NCBI GenBank assembly: GCA_905339405.1
Contig: CAJPGC010000028.1
Span: 1-64,000 of the forward strand
Reading direction: 5' to 3'
Origin: an uncultured bacterium
GTDB taxonomy: Bacteria > Desulfobacterota > GWC2-55-46
DNA: 64,000 nt
Both the position numbers and the translations under genes were made by a program. The first letter of the stretch is position 1, and each line of letters starts with the position of its first letter. Under the pieces are notes generated by a model. It saw only the letters and a program-made list of their open reading frames with translations, made no database searches and was not told where the DNA came from. Below are positions 25,409 to 40,678 of this stretch, piece by piece.

Positions 25409-26632
25409 TCAGTAGACGCTCTTCGCTTCGGAGAGCGCCTTGCCGCCCTTGCCGACCCAGGTGGTCGTCCAGCGGCGCTGGACAACCCTCATGACGAGGA
25501 ACACTACAGCGGCAAGTACGATGAAGGCTATGAACCCGGATGCGAAAGAGCCGGTGTACTGCTTGGACAGGCCCATCGCGTTGGGGATGAAAGCGCCGCC
25601 CAGGGCCCCTATCTCACCTATCATGCTTCCGGCCACGGCCGTGGTCGTGGGCCAGCGCAGCGGCACGAGCTGGAAGAGCGAGCCGTTGCCCATTCCGAGG
25701 AAGGCGAAGCAGATCATGAACAGCCCCGTCGTTACCGTGAGGGAGGGAGCGCCGCTCAGCAGGAGCATGACTACGATGACGCCTATGAATACCAGCGTCA
25801 GGGAGTTGATGCCGCCCCATTTGTCGGAGATGTAGCCGCCCACTATCCTGATGGCGCTGCCCATTACCGCCGCGAGCATCGTAAGCTGTCCGGCCTGTAC
25901 CTTTGTGACGCCGAACTGGTCATGGAAGAAAGTGGGCAGGAAGTTTGCCAGCCCGATGAAGCCGCCGAAGGTTATGATGTAGATGGCGTTGAACATCCAG
26001 CCGTCTTTTTCAACAAGGCAGCTGACAAGCTCTTTCAAGGTGTGGTGCTCCCTGTCAGGGGGCTCCTTGGCGAAGATAAGCATTATGAGGAAAGGCAGGA
26101 GCATCGTGAGTGCCGCGAAGCCGTAAACCGTCTGCCAGCCGTACTTCATCGCCAACGGAGGCGCGAAGAGCACCGCGAGGACCGTTCCGCTGTTGCCTGC
26201 TCCGGCTATACCCATCGCAAGACCCTTGTACTGCGGGGGGAACCATCCCGAACCGAGCGAGAGGGCGACGCCGAAAGACGCGCCTGCTATGCCGAGGAGG
26301 ATACCCATCGCCAGGACGTCGTCGTAGGTGTTGACAGCGTAGTACCCGTACAGCATCGCAACCAGTATCAGGCCCATCTCGACCAGGGCCGCGTTTTTCC
26401 TGCCGATGTACTGCGCCATGACGCCGAGAGGGAAACGCATGAGGGCGCCGGCCATGATGGGTATTGATATCATGAAGCCTTTTTGCGCCGGTGAAAGGTT
26501 GAACGCTTCGCTTATGAAGGGGGCCATGGCTCCGTTAAGAACCCAGATCGCAAAACAGAAGTCGAAATACAGAAATGAAGCAATGAGCGTCGGCACGTGG
26601 CCTGCTTTAGCGAACGCTTTCCAGTTTGCCAT
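25409..26632 (-). CDS. MFS transporter, NarK/NasA nitrate-nitrite transporter-like (407 aa)
   Basis: PFISEAFNLSPAQKGFMISIPIMAGALMRFPLGVMAQYIGRK ... GIAGAGNSGTVLAVLFAPPLA (NarK nitrate signature) ... GGYISDKWGG. Confidence 0.88.
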   Translation of the reverse strand: MANWKAFAKAGHVPTLIASFLYFDFCFAIWVLNGAMAPFISEAFNLSPAQKGFMISIPIMAGALMRFPLGVMAQYIGRKNAALVEMGLILVAMLYGYYAVNTYDDVLAMGILLGIAGASFGVALSLGSGWFPPQYKGLAMGIAGAGNSGTVLAVLFAPPLAMKYGWQTVYGFAALTMLLPFLIMLIFAKEPPDREHHTLKELVSCLVEKDGWMFNAIYIITFGGFIGLANFLPTFFHDQFGVTKVQAGQLTMLAAVMGSAIRIVGGYISDKWGGINSLTLVFIGVIVVMLLLSGAPSLTVTTGLFMICFAFLGMGNGSLFQLVPLRWPTTTAVAGSMIGEIGALGGAFIPNAMGLSKQYTGSFASGFIAFIVLAAVVFLVMRVVQRRWTTTWVGKGGKALSEAKSVY

Positions 26633-26814
26633 TTCTCTCTCCTTTGGAATTTGACGTGGCGGCTTTGAAACAGAAGGGAATTAAAGCGCCAAAAGAGAGC
26701 CGTATTTTTTTGGATGGATTATTGCTGGTTGCGCAGGCGCCAGGAAACGCGAGTGACCCCTGAAATATCAGCACTAAGCCAAAAAAATGCGACTGTGCCT
26801 TTCGGGTAACTCAT

Positions 26815-26842
26815 CGTTATATCCTGAGCGGTAGATATAGCG
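26815..26842. repeat. Imperfect inverted repeat CGTTATAT-N12-ATATAGCG (ModE-box-like half sites, wider spacing)
   Basis: Seen directly; lies in the predicted leader of the 407-aa narK-like gene. Confidence 0.35.
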
Positions 26843-26844
26843 GT

Positions 26845-26873
26845 GAGGAAGTGAATTCCCCATTCACTTCTTC
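26845..26873. repeat. Strong hairpin, 12-bp arms with a 5-nt loop
   Basis: GAGGAAGTGAAT-tcccc-ATTCACTTCTTC (one G.T pair); no following T-run on either strand. Confidence 0.75.
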
Positions 26874-26896
26874 GTTCTGATCGGATTGTTTAACTT

Positions 26897-26925
26897 AAAA
26901 TAGCAATACCAGGAAAAAATGTCAA
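26897..26925 (-). promoter_or_regulatory. Putative sigma70 promoter for the 407-aa narK-like gene
   Basis: Minus strand TTGACA-N17-TATTTT. Confidence 0.6.
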
Positions 26926-26930
26926 GCGAA

Positions 26931-26948
26931 ATGTGAGAGGCGTCACAT
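26931..26948. promoter_or_regulatory. CRP/FNR-superfamily-type operator (CRP/HcpR-like)
   Basis: Perfect palindrome aTGTGA-gaggcg-TCACAt between divergent promoters. Confidence 0.65.
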
Positions 26949-27002
26949 TCGCCGGGGCTGGAATATAGTTAAATCTCTAATGCCGGCTTAATCCAGCCCG
27001 AG

Positions 27003-27008
27003 TATAAT
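27003..27008 (+). promoter_or_regulatory. Putative -10 element upstream of micropeptide genes (weak -35)
   Basis: TATAAT 47 nt before the ATG at 27055; no good -35 hexamer at 17 nt. Confidence 0.45.
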
Positions 27009-27054
27009 GGAAACGTAACAAGGCAAGAAAAAAAGAAGAAAAGGAGGAAAGAAA

Positions 27055-27144
27055 ATGAACAGGACAGCCGAAATAATAGACCTGCTGGTGGCAGTCGGCA
27101 ACATAGCTGTAGCAAGCCTCCTGATCTTCATAGTGGGGCTGTAA
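27055..27144 (+). CDS. Predicted 29-aa single-TM micropeptide (not in ORF track)
   Basis: AAGGAGGAAAGAAAATG RBS/start; MNRTAEIIDLLVAVGNIAVASLLIFIVGL*. Confidence 0.6.
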   Translation: MNRTAEIIDLLVAVGNIAVASLLIFIVGL

Positions 27145-27255
27145 AAAAAGCGGAAGGTTTCAAACCTAATCTTCCCTTAATGTGCAAACGGGTAAGATGG
27201 TGTCTGGTAAGAGGTAATAATAATGACGGAATCTAACATTAACGGGAGGAAGCAG

Positions 27256-27354
27256 ATGAAAAAGGACATAATAGCAGACCTGTATTTTCCGCTTGCGTTC
27301 ATCTTCGGCCAGCTTGTAATAGCGATTGTAGCGGCTGCGTCGATAACCGCTTAA
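27256..27354 (+). CDS. Predicted 32-aa single-TM micropeptide (not in ORF track)
   Basis: GGGAGGAAGCAGATG RBS/start; MKKDIIADLYFPLAFIFGQLVIAIVAAASITA*. Confidence 0.6.
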   Translation: MKKDIIADLYFPLAFIFGQLVIAIVAAASITA

Positions 27355-27395
27355 CTGGCGGTTTTCACATGAGAAAACACAAGACGTACTGTTAA

Positions 27396-27425
27396 AGGGG
27401 GGGGTGTTGAGCCCTCCCTTTTTTC
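27396..27425 (+). terminator. Terminator-like hairpin after micropeptide genes
   Basis: AAGGGGGGGG-tgttgag-CCCTCCCTT followed by T-run (some G.U pairing). Confidence 0.6.
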
Positions 27426-28290
27426 ATTTCAATCCAAATTCGCCCCTCTAAAAACCTGAATCAAATCCAAAATGCATATTGAGAGCCACCTTTGCGTAAC
27501 ATGGCCGGATATTCGTGTTACTGAAAGGTAACACCGCTGGAATTGCTTGTTTTTCAAAGGCGATGCGGCGACCCGCTTGAGTATCACTTTCGTAGGTGTA
27601 ACTTTTTCGTAACGCGTGGGGTACATGAGTTTTTTTGACCACGAAAACTGGATTCTACAAAAAACATTAGAAAAACATGATGTTATCCTCCAATTCCGGC
27701 TTCTGCTTCGTTCTGGTATGCATATTGCAAAATATATCTGTTGAATCGACAAGCAGCAACGGACGCATGGGCGCCAGTGGCTGAGGAAAGGCTTGAAGGA
27801 AGGTTTTTTTGCGATGAGCGGCGGAAAAAGACCTGAACCGGAAAGTCTTCAGATTTTTTTTCAAATTCCTCGTCATTCAAGGCAGGTCCATGCTCCCTGC
27901 GTGCGGACATCCTTGATTTGCCTGGCAGGCCGGTAAAGCGGCCTGGCCTCTTTAGATGGCGTTTTCTTTCACATTCCATCCGGTTTGGGAAAAATACGCT
28001 TCATCGGCAGGGATGCCCCCAAGGGGATAAGTACCGTCAATTTTGGCCATGTCGCATGGCCGGCCCGTTTGTCCACAACCGGCGGGGTGCCAGTTAATCT
28101 GCACCCTGAAGGAGAGGCCGGGACGACCCGATAGGCCAGGGCTGTCATCTTTTATATGGATTCACGCGGCTGTATCGGGGAACTGATCCGCCCTTTTTGC
28201 AGGTTGTCGTCTCCTGGGCCCACGGCGGGCTTTCGGAGGCCTGGCGCCAGGGCCGCGCCATTATTTTGATGATTCTTCATAAGCCCTTCA

Positions 28291-28313
28291 AAGTAACAAT
28301 GCCATTGTTACTT
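28291..28313. repeat. Perfect inverted repeat AAGTAACAAT-gcc-ATTGTTACTT
   Basis: 10-bp arms, 3-nt spacer, in an otherwise gene-poor interval. Confidence 0.7.
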
Positions 28314-28691
28314 AATATATCAGTCAGTTGAAGTACTCTGGTTGCCAGCAGAACACCCCACAGTTTCGCAAGGCGTATGCTTTGCGTGCGCCAGGCGTTC
28401 CCTTTAGCCGTATGCGAGAGGGAAGGGATGAAAAAACATCCATCAAACGTCCATGTACAGGGAAAATCCTGTTCAGGCGCGCTGCCCGCCTTATCATTAA
28501 TATAGTCGGTGGGCGCACGGACTCTTGGGGTGTATCTGGCTAAAGGCGGTTTTCCGGGCCGGGCGGCTTTCGGAAGTGGAATTTTTCAGGGTGGGTAACC
28601 AGTTCGGCGATCCCATCATTAATGCCCGGGGAGGCTTTCTTTTGGCAGCCTGCAAGCCCTATTCGGGCGGTTCAGTACGGAGGTGGCCTTA

Positions 28692-29263: not shown

Positions 29264-30760
29264 ATGGGAGATAGGGAAAGAATGGGGTGGGGCGACCTGC
29301 TGAGCTTCGGCAGGCAGGATGTCGCCGCCCTGCACAAAACGTGGTTCGCCTATTTTCTCACCTTTTTCGTCTGGTTCAACATGGCCCCCCTGGCGACCAC
29401 CATCATCAAGACCTCTGTCCTGACGGCGGACGACCTCAAGCTGCTGGCCGTCTGCAACGTAGCTCTGACCGCTCCAAGCCGCTTCATCATAGGAATGCTC
29501 ACCGACAGGTTCGGCCCGAGGAACACCTTCACCGCTATCATGACCGCGATGTCGCTCCCCTGTTTCGCTTTCGCGTTTTCAGACACCTATACGCAGATGC
29601 TCGCTTCAAGGCTCATCCTTTCGATGGTCGGCACCGGCTTCGTCGTCGGCATACACATGACCTCGCTGTGGTCCAAGCCCAGGGACATCGGCTTCGCGCA
29701 GGGGGTGGAGGCCGGCCTTGGAAACTGGGGAGCTTCGATAGCGGCGATACTCTTGCCTGTAGCGGCGCTGAACCTGTTCGGCTCGTGGAGATACGCTGCC
29801 GCGGCAAGCGGCCTTGTAATGCTCATCTACGGTTTGTATTACAGGGCCTCTATTACTGACGGCCCCCAGGGAGCCTGCCGCAAGCCCGCCGGGGGCTCAG
29901 TCATAGAGGTCTCCACCTGGTGGGACATGATAAGCGCCATGTTCTGGATGGTGCCAGTGACCGGAGTGCTCGCGCTCGTCGTCTGGAGGCTTCGCGCGGT
30001 GGGTTTCCTGAGCGTCGAGGCGGCCGCTGCCGCGTACGCCGTAATAGGCGCGGCCGTGCTCTTCCAGGCGGGGCGTATAGCGTGGCGCAATTACCCATTG
30101 CTAAAGGAGGGCGTGCCAGAGGACGATAAGTACAGGTTCGCGGACGTAGGGGCGCTGTGTCTGTGCTTCGCGGCCTCGTTCGGCGCTGAGCTCGGCGTCA
30201 TCTCCATGCTCCCGCAGTTCTTCGAGAAGAACTTCAGCCTGAGCCCGCAGCTGGCGGGCCTCATGGCGGCCATGTTCGCGTTCATGAACATATTCTCGAG
30301 GTCGCTCGGGGGGCAGATATCGGAGAAGTGCCCTTCCAGGAGAGGTGCGATGCTCGTCTACCTGGCTGGCACCGGCGTTTCGTTCTTCCTCATGGGGCTC
30401 ATCGATTCAAACTGGCCGCTGTGGCTCGCTGCCGCTGTGACAATAGCGTGCGCGCTCTTTGTCACCGGCGCGTGCGGGGCCACGTTCGCCATCGTCCCGC
30501 TCATTAAGAGGCGCGTTACGGGACACATAACCGGGTATGTCGGGGCTTTCGGCAACGTCGGCGCGCTCGCGTACCTGGTAGCGTACACGTTCGTCGACGA
30601 CAGCCGGTTTTTCAATATCATGGGCGCCGCCGCGCTCTTTACGTTCATGTTCTGCTTTTTCTTCCTCAGGGAGCCTGCCGGTGCGTTTTCGCAGGAATAC
30701 CAGATAACGAGCGGCGGCAAGGCCGCCTTGAAGGGCCGCCCCCTGGTCCGGAAGACCTGA
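29264..30760 (+). CDS. MFS nitrate/nitrite transporter, NarK family (498 aa)
   Basis: WFAYFLTFFVWFNMAPLATTI ... GVEAGLGNWGASIAAILLPVAAL ... GYVGAFGNVGALAYLVAYTF (two NarK signatures). Confidence 0.9.
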   Translation: MGDRERMGWGDLLSFGRQDVAALHKTWFAYFLTFFVWFNMAPLATTIIKTSVLTADDLKLLAVCNVALTAPSRFIIGMLTDRFGPRNTFTAIMTAMSLPCFAFAFSDTYTQMLASRLILSMVGTGFVVGIHMTSLWSKPRDIGFAQGVEAGLGNWGASIAAILLPVAALNLFGSWRYAAAASGLVMLIYGLYYRASITDGPQGACRKPAGGSVIEVSTWWDMISAMFWMVPVTGVLALVVWRLRAVGFLSVEAAAAAYAVIGAAVLFQAGRIAWRNYPLLKEGVPEDDKYRFADVGALCLCFAASFGAELGVISMLPQFFEKNFSLSPQLAGLMAAMFAFMNIFSRSLGGQISEKCPSRRGAMLVYLAGTGVSFFLMGLIDSNWPLWLAAAVTIACALFVTGACGATFAIVPLIKRRVTGHITGYVGAFGNVGALAYLVAYTFVDDSRFFNIMGAAALFTFMFCFFFLREPAGAFSQEYQITSGGKAALKGRPLVRKT

Positions 30761-38968: not shown

Positions 38969-40678
38969 ATGGCGAAAATACAAAAATGGGAGCCGGAAAA
39001 TGAACAGTTCTGGCGTGAAACCGGCAGCTCACTGGCGTGGCGCACGTGCGGTATAACCACGTTCTCGCTCATATTCTCATTCGCGACATGGTTTGTCATG
39101 AGCGCCGTGGTCGTAAGGCTTCCTAACATAGGCTTCAAATTCACCACAATGGAACTGTTCTGGCTAGCGGCCATACCGGGCTTCGCTTCCGGTATACTGA
39201 GGCTCATTCACTCCTTCTTTATCCCCGTCCTTGGAACACGACCGGTCGTGAGCATCGCGACCATCATCAAGCTCATTCCCATGGTATGGCTCGGTTACGC
39301 GGTTCAGGACACTTCTACGCCGTGGTCAACCTTCATGATAATCGGCTTCCTCAGCGGTATGGGCGGCGGAGACTTCTCCTCGTACATGCCTTCAACCAGC
39401 ATATTTTTCCCCAAGAGGCTTCAGGGCCTCGCGATGGGCATCCAGGCCGGTATCGGCAACTTCGGCGTCAGCGTCGTTCAGTTCGTGACGCCGTGGATAG
39501 TCGGTTTCGTACTTGTCGGCGGAGCCTACGGCCTGCCGCAGGTATTCACCAAAGCCGACCCTGTTAAAAAGGGCACGGTAACAGTGACGAAGGACGCCTC
39601 CGGCGTAGTTACCGACGTCGTTGTCAATGACCCTGCGCTCGCGGCCGCCGTGGTCGTCACCAGGGACGCCTCCGGCGTTCTCACCGGTGTTGCGCTCCAG
39701 GAAACCGAAACGGTAAAGATCCTGAAAGCCGATGTTGTAAAGGACGAGGCTACCGGCAAGATAACCGCCGTGAAAAAGTCAGAAGGCTACCTCCTTGACG
39801 TCAAGAAGAACGACGCTGGCGCGATCGTGGATGTGACCGTCAAGAAGGGCATCAAGAAGGCGATGTGGCTTCATAACTCCGCGTTCTGGTATGTGCCTGT
39901 CCTCATCCTCGCCTTCATACTCAGCGTTTTCGGCCTCAAGAGCATAGACCCTGCGGCGCTCGGCATCAAGGGCGGCGCCTTCAAGAAGATGTTCCAGATA
40001 CTCAGCTCCAAGTACAGGGCCCGCACCCATACCTGGAACTGCACCATAACCTACATAGCTTCATTCGGTTCTTTTGCCGGTTACGCTGCCGCTTTCCCGA
40101 TGATGATCAAGATCATCTACGGCGGCTTTGACGGCGCTCCGGACCCGCTGAAGTACGCTTTCTTCGGCCCGCTCATCGGCGGAGTTTCCCGCGCGGTCAC
40201 AGGCGGCATCTTTGACAAGATCGGCGGCAGCAAGGGCATGCACTGGTGCCTCATCGGCCAGATAATCGGCTGTTTGGCCCTTATTTTCGGCGGCTACCTT
40301 ACTCCGACCACTCTTGAGCAGTTCCCGATGTTCGTTTACATCATGCTCTGGATATTCCTGATGACCGGCATCAACAACGCCGCCACCTTCCGCCAGTACC
40401 CGATAGTGTTCGCGTATTCGCCCGCCCAGGGCGCGCAGATGCTTGGCTGGACCGGCGCGTGGGCGGCATTCGGCCCGTTCATATGGACCAGCCTCATCGG
40501 TATGTCCATAACGAAGACAGGCAGCGCCATAACGTTCTTTGTTGGCGCCGCTATCTTCTACGCCTACGCCTTCATCCTCAACTGGTGGTACTACACCCGT
40601 AAGGGGTCCGAAAGGTACGATTACGGCAGCAGCGGCGGCACGTGGTGGGACAAGGCCAACAAGTCCGACTTCCAGTAA
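38969..40678 (+). CDS. narK: MFS nitrate/nitrite transporter, NarK family, with large periplasmic-loop insertion (569 aa)
   Basis: GLAMGIQAGIGNFGVSVVQFVTPWIVGFVLVGG (TM5 signature) then ~110-aa non-MFS insert, then TM6 onward; GGIFDKIGGSKGMHW. Confidence 0.9.
   Translation: MAKIQKWEPENEQFWRETGSSLAWRTCGITTFSLIFSFATWFVMSAVVVRLPNIGFKFTTMELFWLAAIPGFASGILRLIHSFFIPVLGTRPVVSIATIIKLIPMVWLGYAVQDTSTPWSTFMIIGFLSGMGGGDFSSYMPSTSIFFPKRLQGLAMGIQAGIGNFGVSVVQFVTPWIVGFVLVGGAYGLPQVFTKADPVKKGTVTVTKDASGVVTDVVVNDPALAAAVVVTRDASGVLTGVALQETETVKILKADVVKDEATGKITAVKKSEGYLLDVKKNDAGAIVDVTVKKGIKKAMWLHNSAFWYVPVLILAFILSVFGLKSIDPAALGIKGGAFKKMFQILSSKYRARTHTWNCTITYIASFGSFAGYAAAFPMMIKIIYGGFDGAPDPLKYAFFGPLIGGVSRAVTGGIFDKIGGSKGMHWCLIGQIIGCLALIFGGYLTPTTLEQFPMFVYIMLWIFLMTGINNAATFRQYPIVFAYSPAQGAQMLGWTGAWAAFGPFIWTSLIGMSITKTGSAITFFVGAAIFYAYAFILNWWYYTRKGSERYDYGSSGGTWWDKANKSDFQ
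39584..39841 (+). repeat. About four degenerate tandem coding repeats inside narK (units near 39584, 39656, 39734, 39800)
   Basis: VTKDASGVVTDVVV / VTRDASGVLTGVAL / VVKDEATGKITAVK / VKKNDAGAIVDVTV; 15-nt exact match GGACGCCTCCGGCGT at 39592 and 39664. Confidence 0.8.

Follow-up and report, generated by a model that had tools for sequence, protein, structure and literature searches.

Two short frames in the window analysed here (the whole stretch of 64,000 nucleotides), P1 and P2, are on the evidence of their sequences genuine genes for single-transmembrane micropeptides. We consider it probable that both are expressed from promoters of their own within a lineage-specific regulon, with a CopR/PmrA-type regulator as the activator, and that their products tune nearby membrane proteins. 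The features of the region are listed in Table 1. A sequence-only reading of this DNA had picked out the two frames, each behind a strong Shine-Dalgarno sequence and each with one hydrophobic helix, as well as the TATAAT −10 element and the terminator-like hairpin, and all of these are present; the hairpin has 12 pairs, with an MFE of −21.1 kcal/mol and a z of −4.4.

Table 1. Features of the P1/P2 region, in window coordinates.
Feature	Position	Strand	Conservation or basis
Divergent NarK-family MFS transporter gene	25409–26632	−	TIGR00886 best match; 94–96% amino acid identity, same place in three congeners
Palindrome TGTGA-N6-TCACA	26932–26947	no strand	No second exact match in the 64 kb; 0.02 expected
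Direct-repeat box 1, TCTAAT-GCCGG-CTTAAT, two half-sites, 11-bp period	26976–26992	+	Exact match to the lineage-specific promoter
−10 element TATAAT of P1, 10 bp after box 1	27003–27008	+	Conserved in congeners
Shine-Dalgarno AAGGAGG of P1	27041–27047	+	Sequence
P1, single-span micropeptide gene, 29 aa, MNRTAEIIDLLVAVGNIAVASLLIFIVGL	27055–27144	+	Frame kept in G001, G002, G003
Direct-repeat box 2, CCTAAT-CTTCC-CTTAAT, upstream of P2	27165–27181	+	Kept in G001 and G002
−10-like TAAGAT of P2; TATGAT or TATTAT in congeners	27193–27198	+	Alignment
Shine-Dalgarno GGGAGG of P2	27244–27249	+	Sequence
P2, single-span micropeptide gene, 32 aa, MKKDIIADLYFPLAFIFGQLVIAIVAAASITA	27256–27354	+	Frame kept in G001, G002, G003
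Intrinsic terminator hairpin, then T run	27394–27422	+	77–90% identity in congeners

P1 and P2 are not chance frames, because the frames, the promoter and the terminator are conserved in three congeners and the gaps between them are not. The comparison was made with three genomes of the same genus, G001, G003 and G002, the last being the most divergent, and a DNA search finds the P1/P2 block in each (76%, 76% and 69%, respectively). Conservation is blockwise; identities to these genomes, in the same order, are 94, 86 and 86% for the P1 promoter, 88, 87 and 73% for the P1 coding sequence, 82, 83 and 68% for that of P2, and 90, 90 and 77% for the terminator, with the spacers between these elements mostly at 19–64%. 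Both frames are uninterrupted in all three, with none of the frameshifts or stops that would have counted against them, and substitutions fall mainly at third codon positions. Against G001 and G003, P1 has 2–3 amino acid changes per 11–12 nucleotide changes (simulated mean about 7; P = 0.0005 and 0.002), and the same simulation for P2 gives P = 0.05, 0.007 and 0.002 against G001, G003 and G002. The codon-level conservation that had been proposed as a check is thus seen for P2 against all three congeners and for P1 against G001 and G003, but not for P1 against G002 alone, where 13 amino acid changes per 23 nucleotide changes are non-significant (P = 0.42) and most of the changes are conservative. 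The corresponding dN/dS values are 0.06 (G001), 0.11 (G003) and 0.48 (G002) for P1 and 0.15–0.23 against all three for P2, and within the genus 16 of 29 columns of P1 and 17 of 32 of P2 are invariant. These patterns bear on the reading that the encoded amino acids are irrelevant, the frames being leader peptides or belonging to a regulatory small RNA. At other loci short open reading frames do occur 5′ of genes for kinases, for ANTAR regulators and for a DEAD-box helicase, as that reading would have it, but here the nucleotide changes are mostly synonymous or conservative, P1 and P2 have their own terminator, and the first sizeable co-directional gene downstream begins only at 28683; we regard the reading as most improbable.

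The location of the pair is conserved as well. In all three congeners P1 and P2 adjoin the narK-like MFS gene and are placed between it and the nar operon, a conserved synteny of the kind that had been suggested for checking, and the description of this neighbour as narK-like was apt, since its best match is TIGR00886 (7e-73) with a score of 245.8 bits that does not reach the curated cut-off of 311.7. In G002, where neither the universal-stress-protein gene (28683) nor the second MFS gene was found, P1 and P2 still have the first MFS gene on one side and the cytochrome c/NarG genes on the other. We note that three NarK-like MFS genes surround the one nar operon of the window (25409–26632, 29264–30760 and 38969–40678), the last of them unusually long (569 aa). 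Between the divergent narK-like and P1 promoters, and just upstream of the TTGACA-type promoter of the narK-like gene, sits a palindrome with perfect half-sites in G001, G003 and G002, which we take to resemble the sites of CRP/FNR-family regulators; it may act on the narK-like gene, on P1 or on both.

The degenerate box [CT][CT]TAAT-N5-[CT]TTAAT occurs exactly twice in the 64 kb (at 26976 and 27165; 0.09 expected), and because this repeat lies upstream of both genes, P1 and P2 each appear to have a promoter of the same type. The sequence-only reading had described a complete two-gene unit, and its promoter and terminator are real, but the region is not a single unit, as P2 has its own box and −10 (27165–27198); the arrangement is best described, from the signals present, as two putative promoter-gene units sharing one terminator. 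The −10 of P2 is weak in the window, and its distance from the box is one base longer, as it also is in many regulator operons. No convincing terminator was found between P1 and P2, so transcriptional read-through from P1 into P2 is possible. Family-level relatives define the conserved element as TCTAAT-N5-CTTAAT followed 10 bp on by TATAATGG. The arrangement by which an OmpR/PhoB-type (PmrA-box-like) regulon would be recognised, tandem half-sites with an 11-bp period just upstream of a −10, is found at 26976, at 27165 and at about 108 sites in the order.

Comparison of the peptides with known families revealed no match, in agreement with the initial impression that they resemble none that is recognised. 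There are no Pfam or NCBIfam family matches for P1 or P2, and no Rfam match up to E = 1 in 26500–28600 (riboswitch, sRNA or antisense antitoxin). When P1, P2 and eight relatives were searched against Pfam at E up to 10, a setting at which most matches above about 0.1 are lost to the HMMER filters, no KdpF, CydX, CcoS or type I toxin family was matched, and the tested peptides gave a single chance-level match. Profile HMMs of P1 and P2 have confident matches in this genus and no confident relatives beyond it. The size, hydrophobicity and tandem arrays of the peptides (see below) recall, to our knowledge, Ibs, Ldr and TisB, which raises the question of type I toxin-like membrane peptides held down by antisense RNAs. 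This we consider very unlikely: beyond the lack of any Rfam match at the locus and of any peptide match in Pfam other than the chance-level one, the antisense promoter-like site within P1 is weak and the promoter-like sites of the region are near chance level, each gene has an independent conserved promoter and Shine-Dalgarno sequence, and the box is common to non-toxin redox genes. KdpF, a 30-aa accessory peptide co-transcribed with kdpABC and regulated by KdpDE (PMC3618439), together with CydX and CcoS, is like P1 and P2 in size and in its single helix, and is the model for the accessory-subunit idea put forward at the outset; however, no Pfam match links them, and P1 and P2 lie outside the operon of the complex. 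A regulon of two-component-controlled micropeptides with other members at unrelated loci is the stronger lead.

An overview of the promoter across relatives, mostly draft MAGs, shows the extent of this regulon. First, the 48 genomes covered in the order contain about 108 sites that match the 35-bp promoter with up to 3 mismatches, compared with 4 for a reversed control. Secondly, its exact form is present in 14 stretches among 85,462 species genomes, all of them Deltaproteobacteria MAGs, and a phylum sample of 395 genomes searched at up to 1 mismatch has no match outside the order. A viral origin was considered and is unsupported, with zero matches to the promoter in viral contigs. Thirdly, a Shine-Dalgarno sequence and a hydrophobic open reading frame of 20–42 aa follow at +55 to +140 at 49 of 82 distinct sites (up to 2 mismatches), whereas the same criteria are satisfied at 15 of 2,532 random positions of the same loci (0.6%), and about 40% of the promoter sites are without a recognised micropeptide at the expected place; because the data that served to tune the promoter pattern and the micropeptide criteria also supplied the enrichment, these percentages are on the optimistic side, and the difference from random positions and from the reversed pattern can be stated more safely. 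A wider scan lists 85 peptides, a few of which are alternative starts, leaving about 80 that are distinct. The promoter is conserved across relatives, and the P1 and P2 peptides, judged by sequence, are confined to the genus.

The micropeptides are often arranged in tandem arrays of up to seven in a row, and in several genera, the genome of the window included, such arrays are upstream of a DEAD-box RNA helicase gene. In this genome a second array with two boxes is found directly upstream of the helicase gene (G000:C7, L127, about 77433–78350), and the arrangement recurs in other genera at L047, L048, L051, L083, L087 and L104. Cache-domain histidine kinases, NifA-like activators and ANTAR response regulators also recur as neighbours. 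A Cache/HAMP/PAS histidine kinase gene (L117:167–2416; apparent orthologues at L116, L114, L139 and L086) is preceded by a box in several genera, at times with a micropeptide located between the box and the kinase. A box also precedes a TlpA-like thioredoxin gene, itself followed by a gene for a second exported protein, in several genera (L093, L094, L111, L115, L069 and L082), the second protein being DUF3570 at L093, and in genus g9 (L043/L044) a box precedes a gene for a 179-aa exported protein with no Pfam match. In the genome of the window, boxes are further located before ApbE, a ResB cytochrome-c-biogenesis operon and an ANTAR regulator, and at another box a b561/dihaem-cytochrome-c protein is encoded directly behind a further micropeptide; judged from these gene assignments, the non-peptide targets appear to share a redox/envelope theme.

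The genome encodes only three OmpR-family regulators, one of which (C1:24722–25390) shares its operon with genes for a histidine kinase and a cytochrome b561-like protein. Among models, CopR/CzcR fits this regulator best and CopS/CzcS the kinase, in both cases with scores just below the cut-offs; against TIGR01387 (CopR/CzcR/SilR) the regulator scores 274.0 bits where 279.2 are required, making it a close relative and by rule a non-member. A single box is present at this locus, about 160 bp ahead of the b561 gene, and since the operon carries the same box it appears to be autoregulated. The orthologous b561–regulator–kinase loci have an upstream box in the sense orientation in 26 of 30 cases and in the antisense orientation in none, with 1 box in the 61 kb downstream of them (both strands). 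The two other OmpR-family loci of the genome (24 kb) have no box. PhoB-PhoR of this genome and the other CusR-like regulator, C24, were rejected as likely regulators, their loci being without a box and the C24 type being present in motif-less genomes of genus g6 as well. Across the 48 genomes, 28 have both the regulator and the promoter, 5 the regulator only (G033, G039, G041, G046 and G047, which have no 35-bp promoter), 4 the promoter only and 11 neither, a co-occurrence with a Fisher P of 1.5e-4, uncorrected for shared ancestry. In genus g6, five genomes have neither and the sixth, G029, has both. Promoters are present without a close regulator orthologue in G015 (93% complete) and in G012 (100% complete), the latter also retaining a micropeptide array (L026/L035).

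The upstream box at 26 of the 30 loci points to the two-component system of the b561 operon as the autoregulated regulator of the boxes. Alternatively, the boxes could belong to another regulator, with the CopR/PmrA-type protein being merely one of its targets, as G012 and G015 would suggest in keeping boxes without it; this we consider quite unlikely, given that the two remaining OmpR-family loci are without a box, that gain and loss are matched in genus g6, and that the type of half-site fits the PmrA group. The PmrA box is CTTAAT-N5-CCTAAG (PMC3973317) and likewise has CTTAAT-type half-sites placed head to tail and 5 bp apart, although here the first half-site is usually TCTAAT and CopR/CzcR (TIGR01387) is the model nearest to the regulator.

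Starting from the genes, boxes, regulon, autoregulatory box and synteny as read from the sequence, we infer the binding of the regulator to the boxes, the inducing signal and the targets of the peptides as follows. The two head-to-tail half-sites, YYTAAT-N5-YTTAAT, which lie 10–11 bp upstream of the −10, would replace the −35, and the most likely activator is the CopR/PmrA-type (OmpR-family) regulator whose gene lies with those for a sensor kinase and a b561-like protein. An envelope, redox or metal signal would probably activate the kinase; the regulator, once phosphorylated, would then occupy the tandem half-sites and switch on many scattered short membrane peptides and periplasmic redox genes. 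Once inserted in the inner membrane, the peptides would modulate membrane proteins close by, in the way that PmrR acts on LpxT and MgrB on PhoQ; because the neighbours of P1 and P2 are fixed, their targets may be the NarK-like transporter or the nitrate-reductase membrane complex.

Several known systems resemble parts of this scheme. PmrR of the Salmonella/E. coli PmrA regulon is expressed from its own PmrA-box promoter and inhibits LpxT (PMC8129183); compared by regulation only, it is similar in being a small membrane peptide with its own box promoter under OmpR-family control, but it is a single peptide, whereas dozens of unrelated ones in tandem arrays are seen here. MgrB, a 47-aa feedback inhibitor of PhoQ in the PhoP regulon (PMC2789325), is also a two-component-controlled membrane peptide, and several of the present micropeptides adjoin kinase or regulator genes, although MgrB is longer than these. 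Even membrane peptides of random sequence have been found capable of activating PmrB, a kinase, via its transmembrane region (PMC7790251). YohP, a 27-aa stress membrane protein of E. coli, lowers the membrane potential and triggers metabolic silencing (PMC12719787); it is alike in size, single helix and stress-linked expression, but shares no demonstrated regulator or sequence family with P1 and P2. YohP is the precedent for the main rival, which we think on the whole unlikely, that the micropeptides act on the membrane generally (on fluidity or proton motive force) under stress and have no specific partner. Diverse sequences alike only in length and in one hydrophobic helix, behind one type of promoter, would be in keeping with such an action, whereas the residues conserved within the genus and the fixed narK/nar synteny suggest specific partners.

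Membrane peptides under two-component control have so far been described singly or in small numbers; here about 80 distinct unannotated micropeptides of an uncultured order are marked by one type of promoter, which provides a promoter-based route to genes that are missed by ORF callers. The box is order-wide, and the peptides are genus-variable, in tandem, and located beside different membrane, signalling and helicase genes. We tentatively suggest, in what falls slightly short of an even call, that a dedicated two-component system drives this micropeptide regulon and that the box and its peptides constitute a cis-regulatory cassette. If this is true, the cassette would be one from which new membrane regulators arise, and with a candidate regulator linked to it, the function and origin of the micropeptides would become testable by cross-genus comparison.
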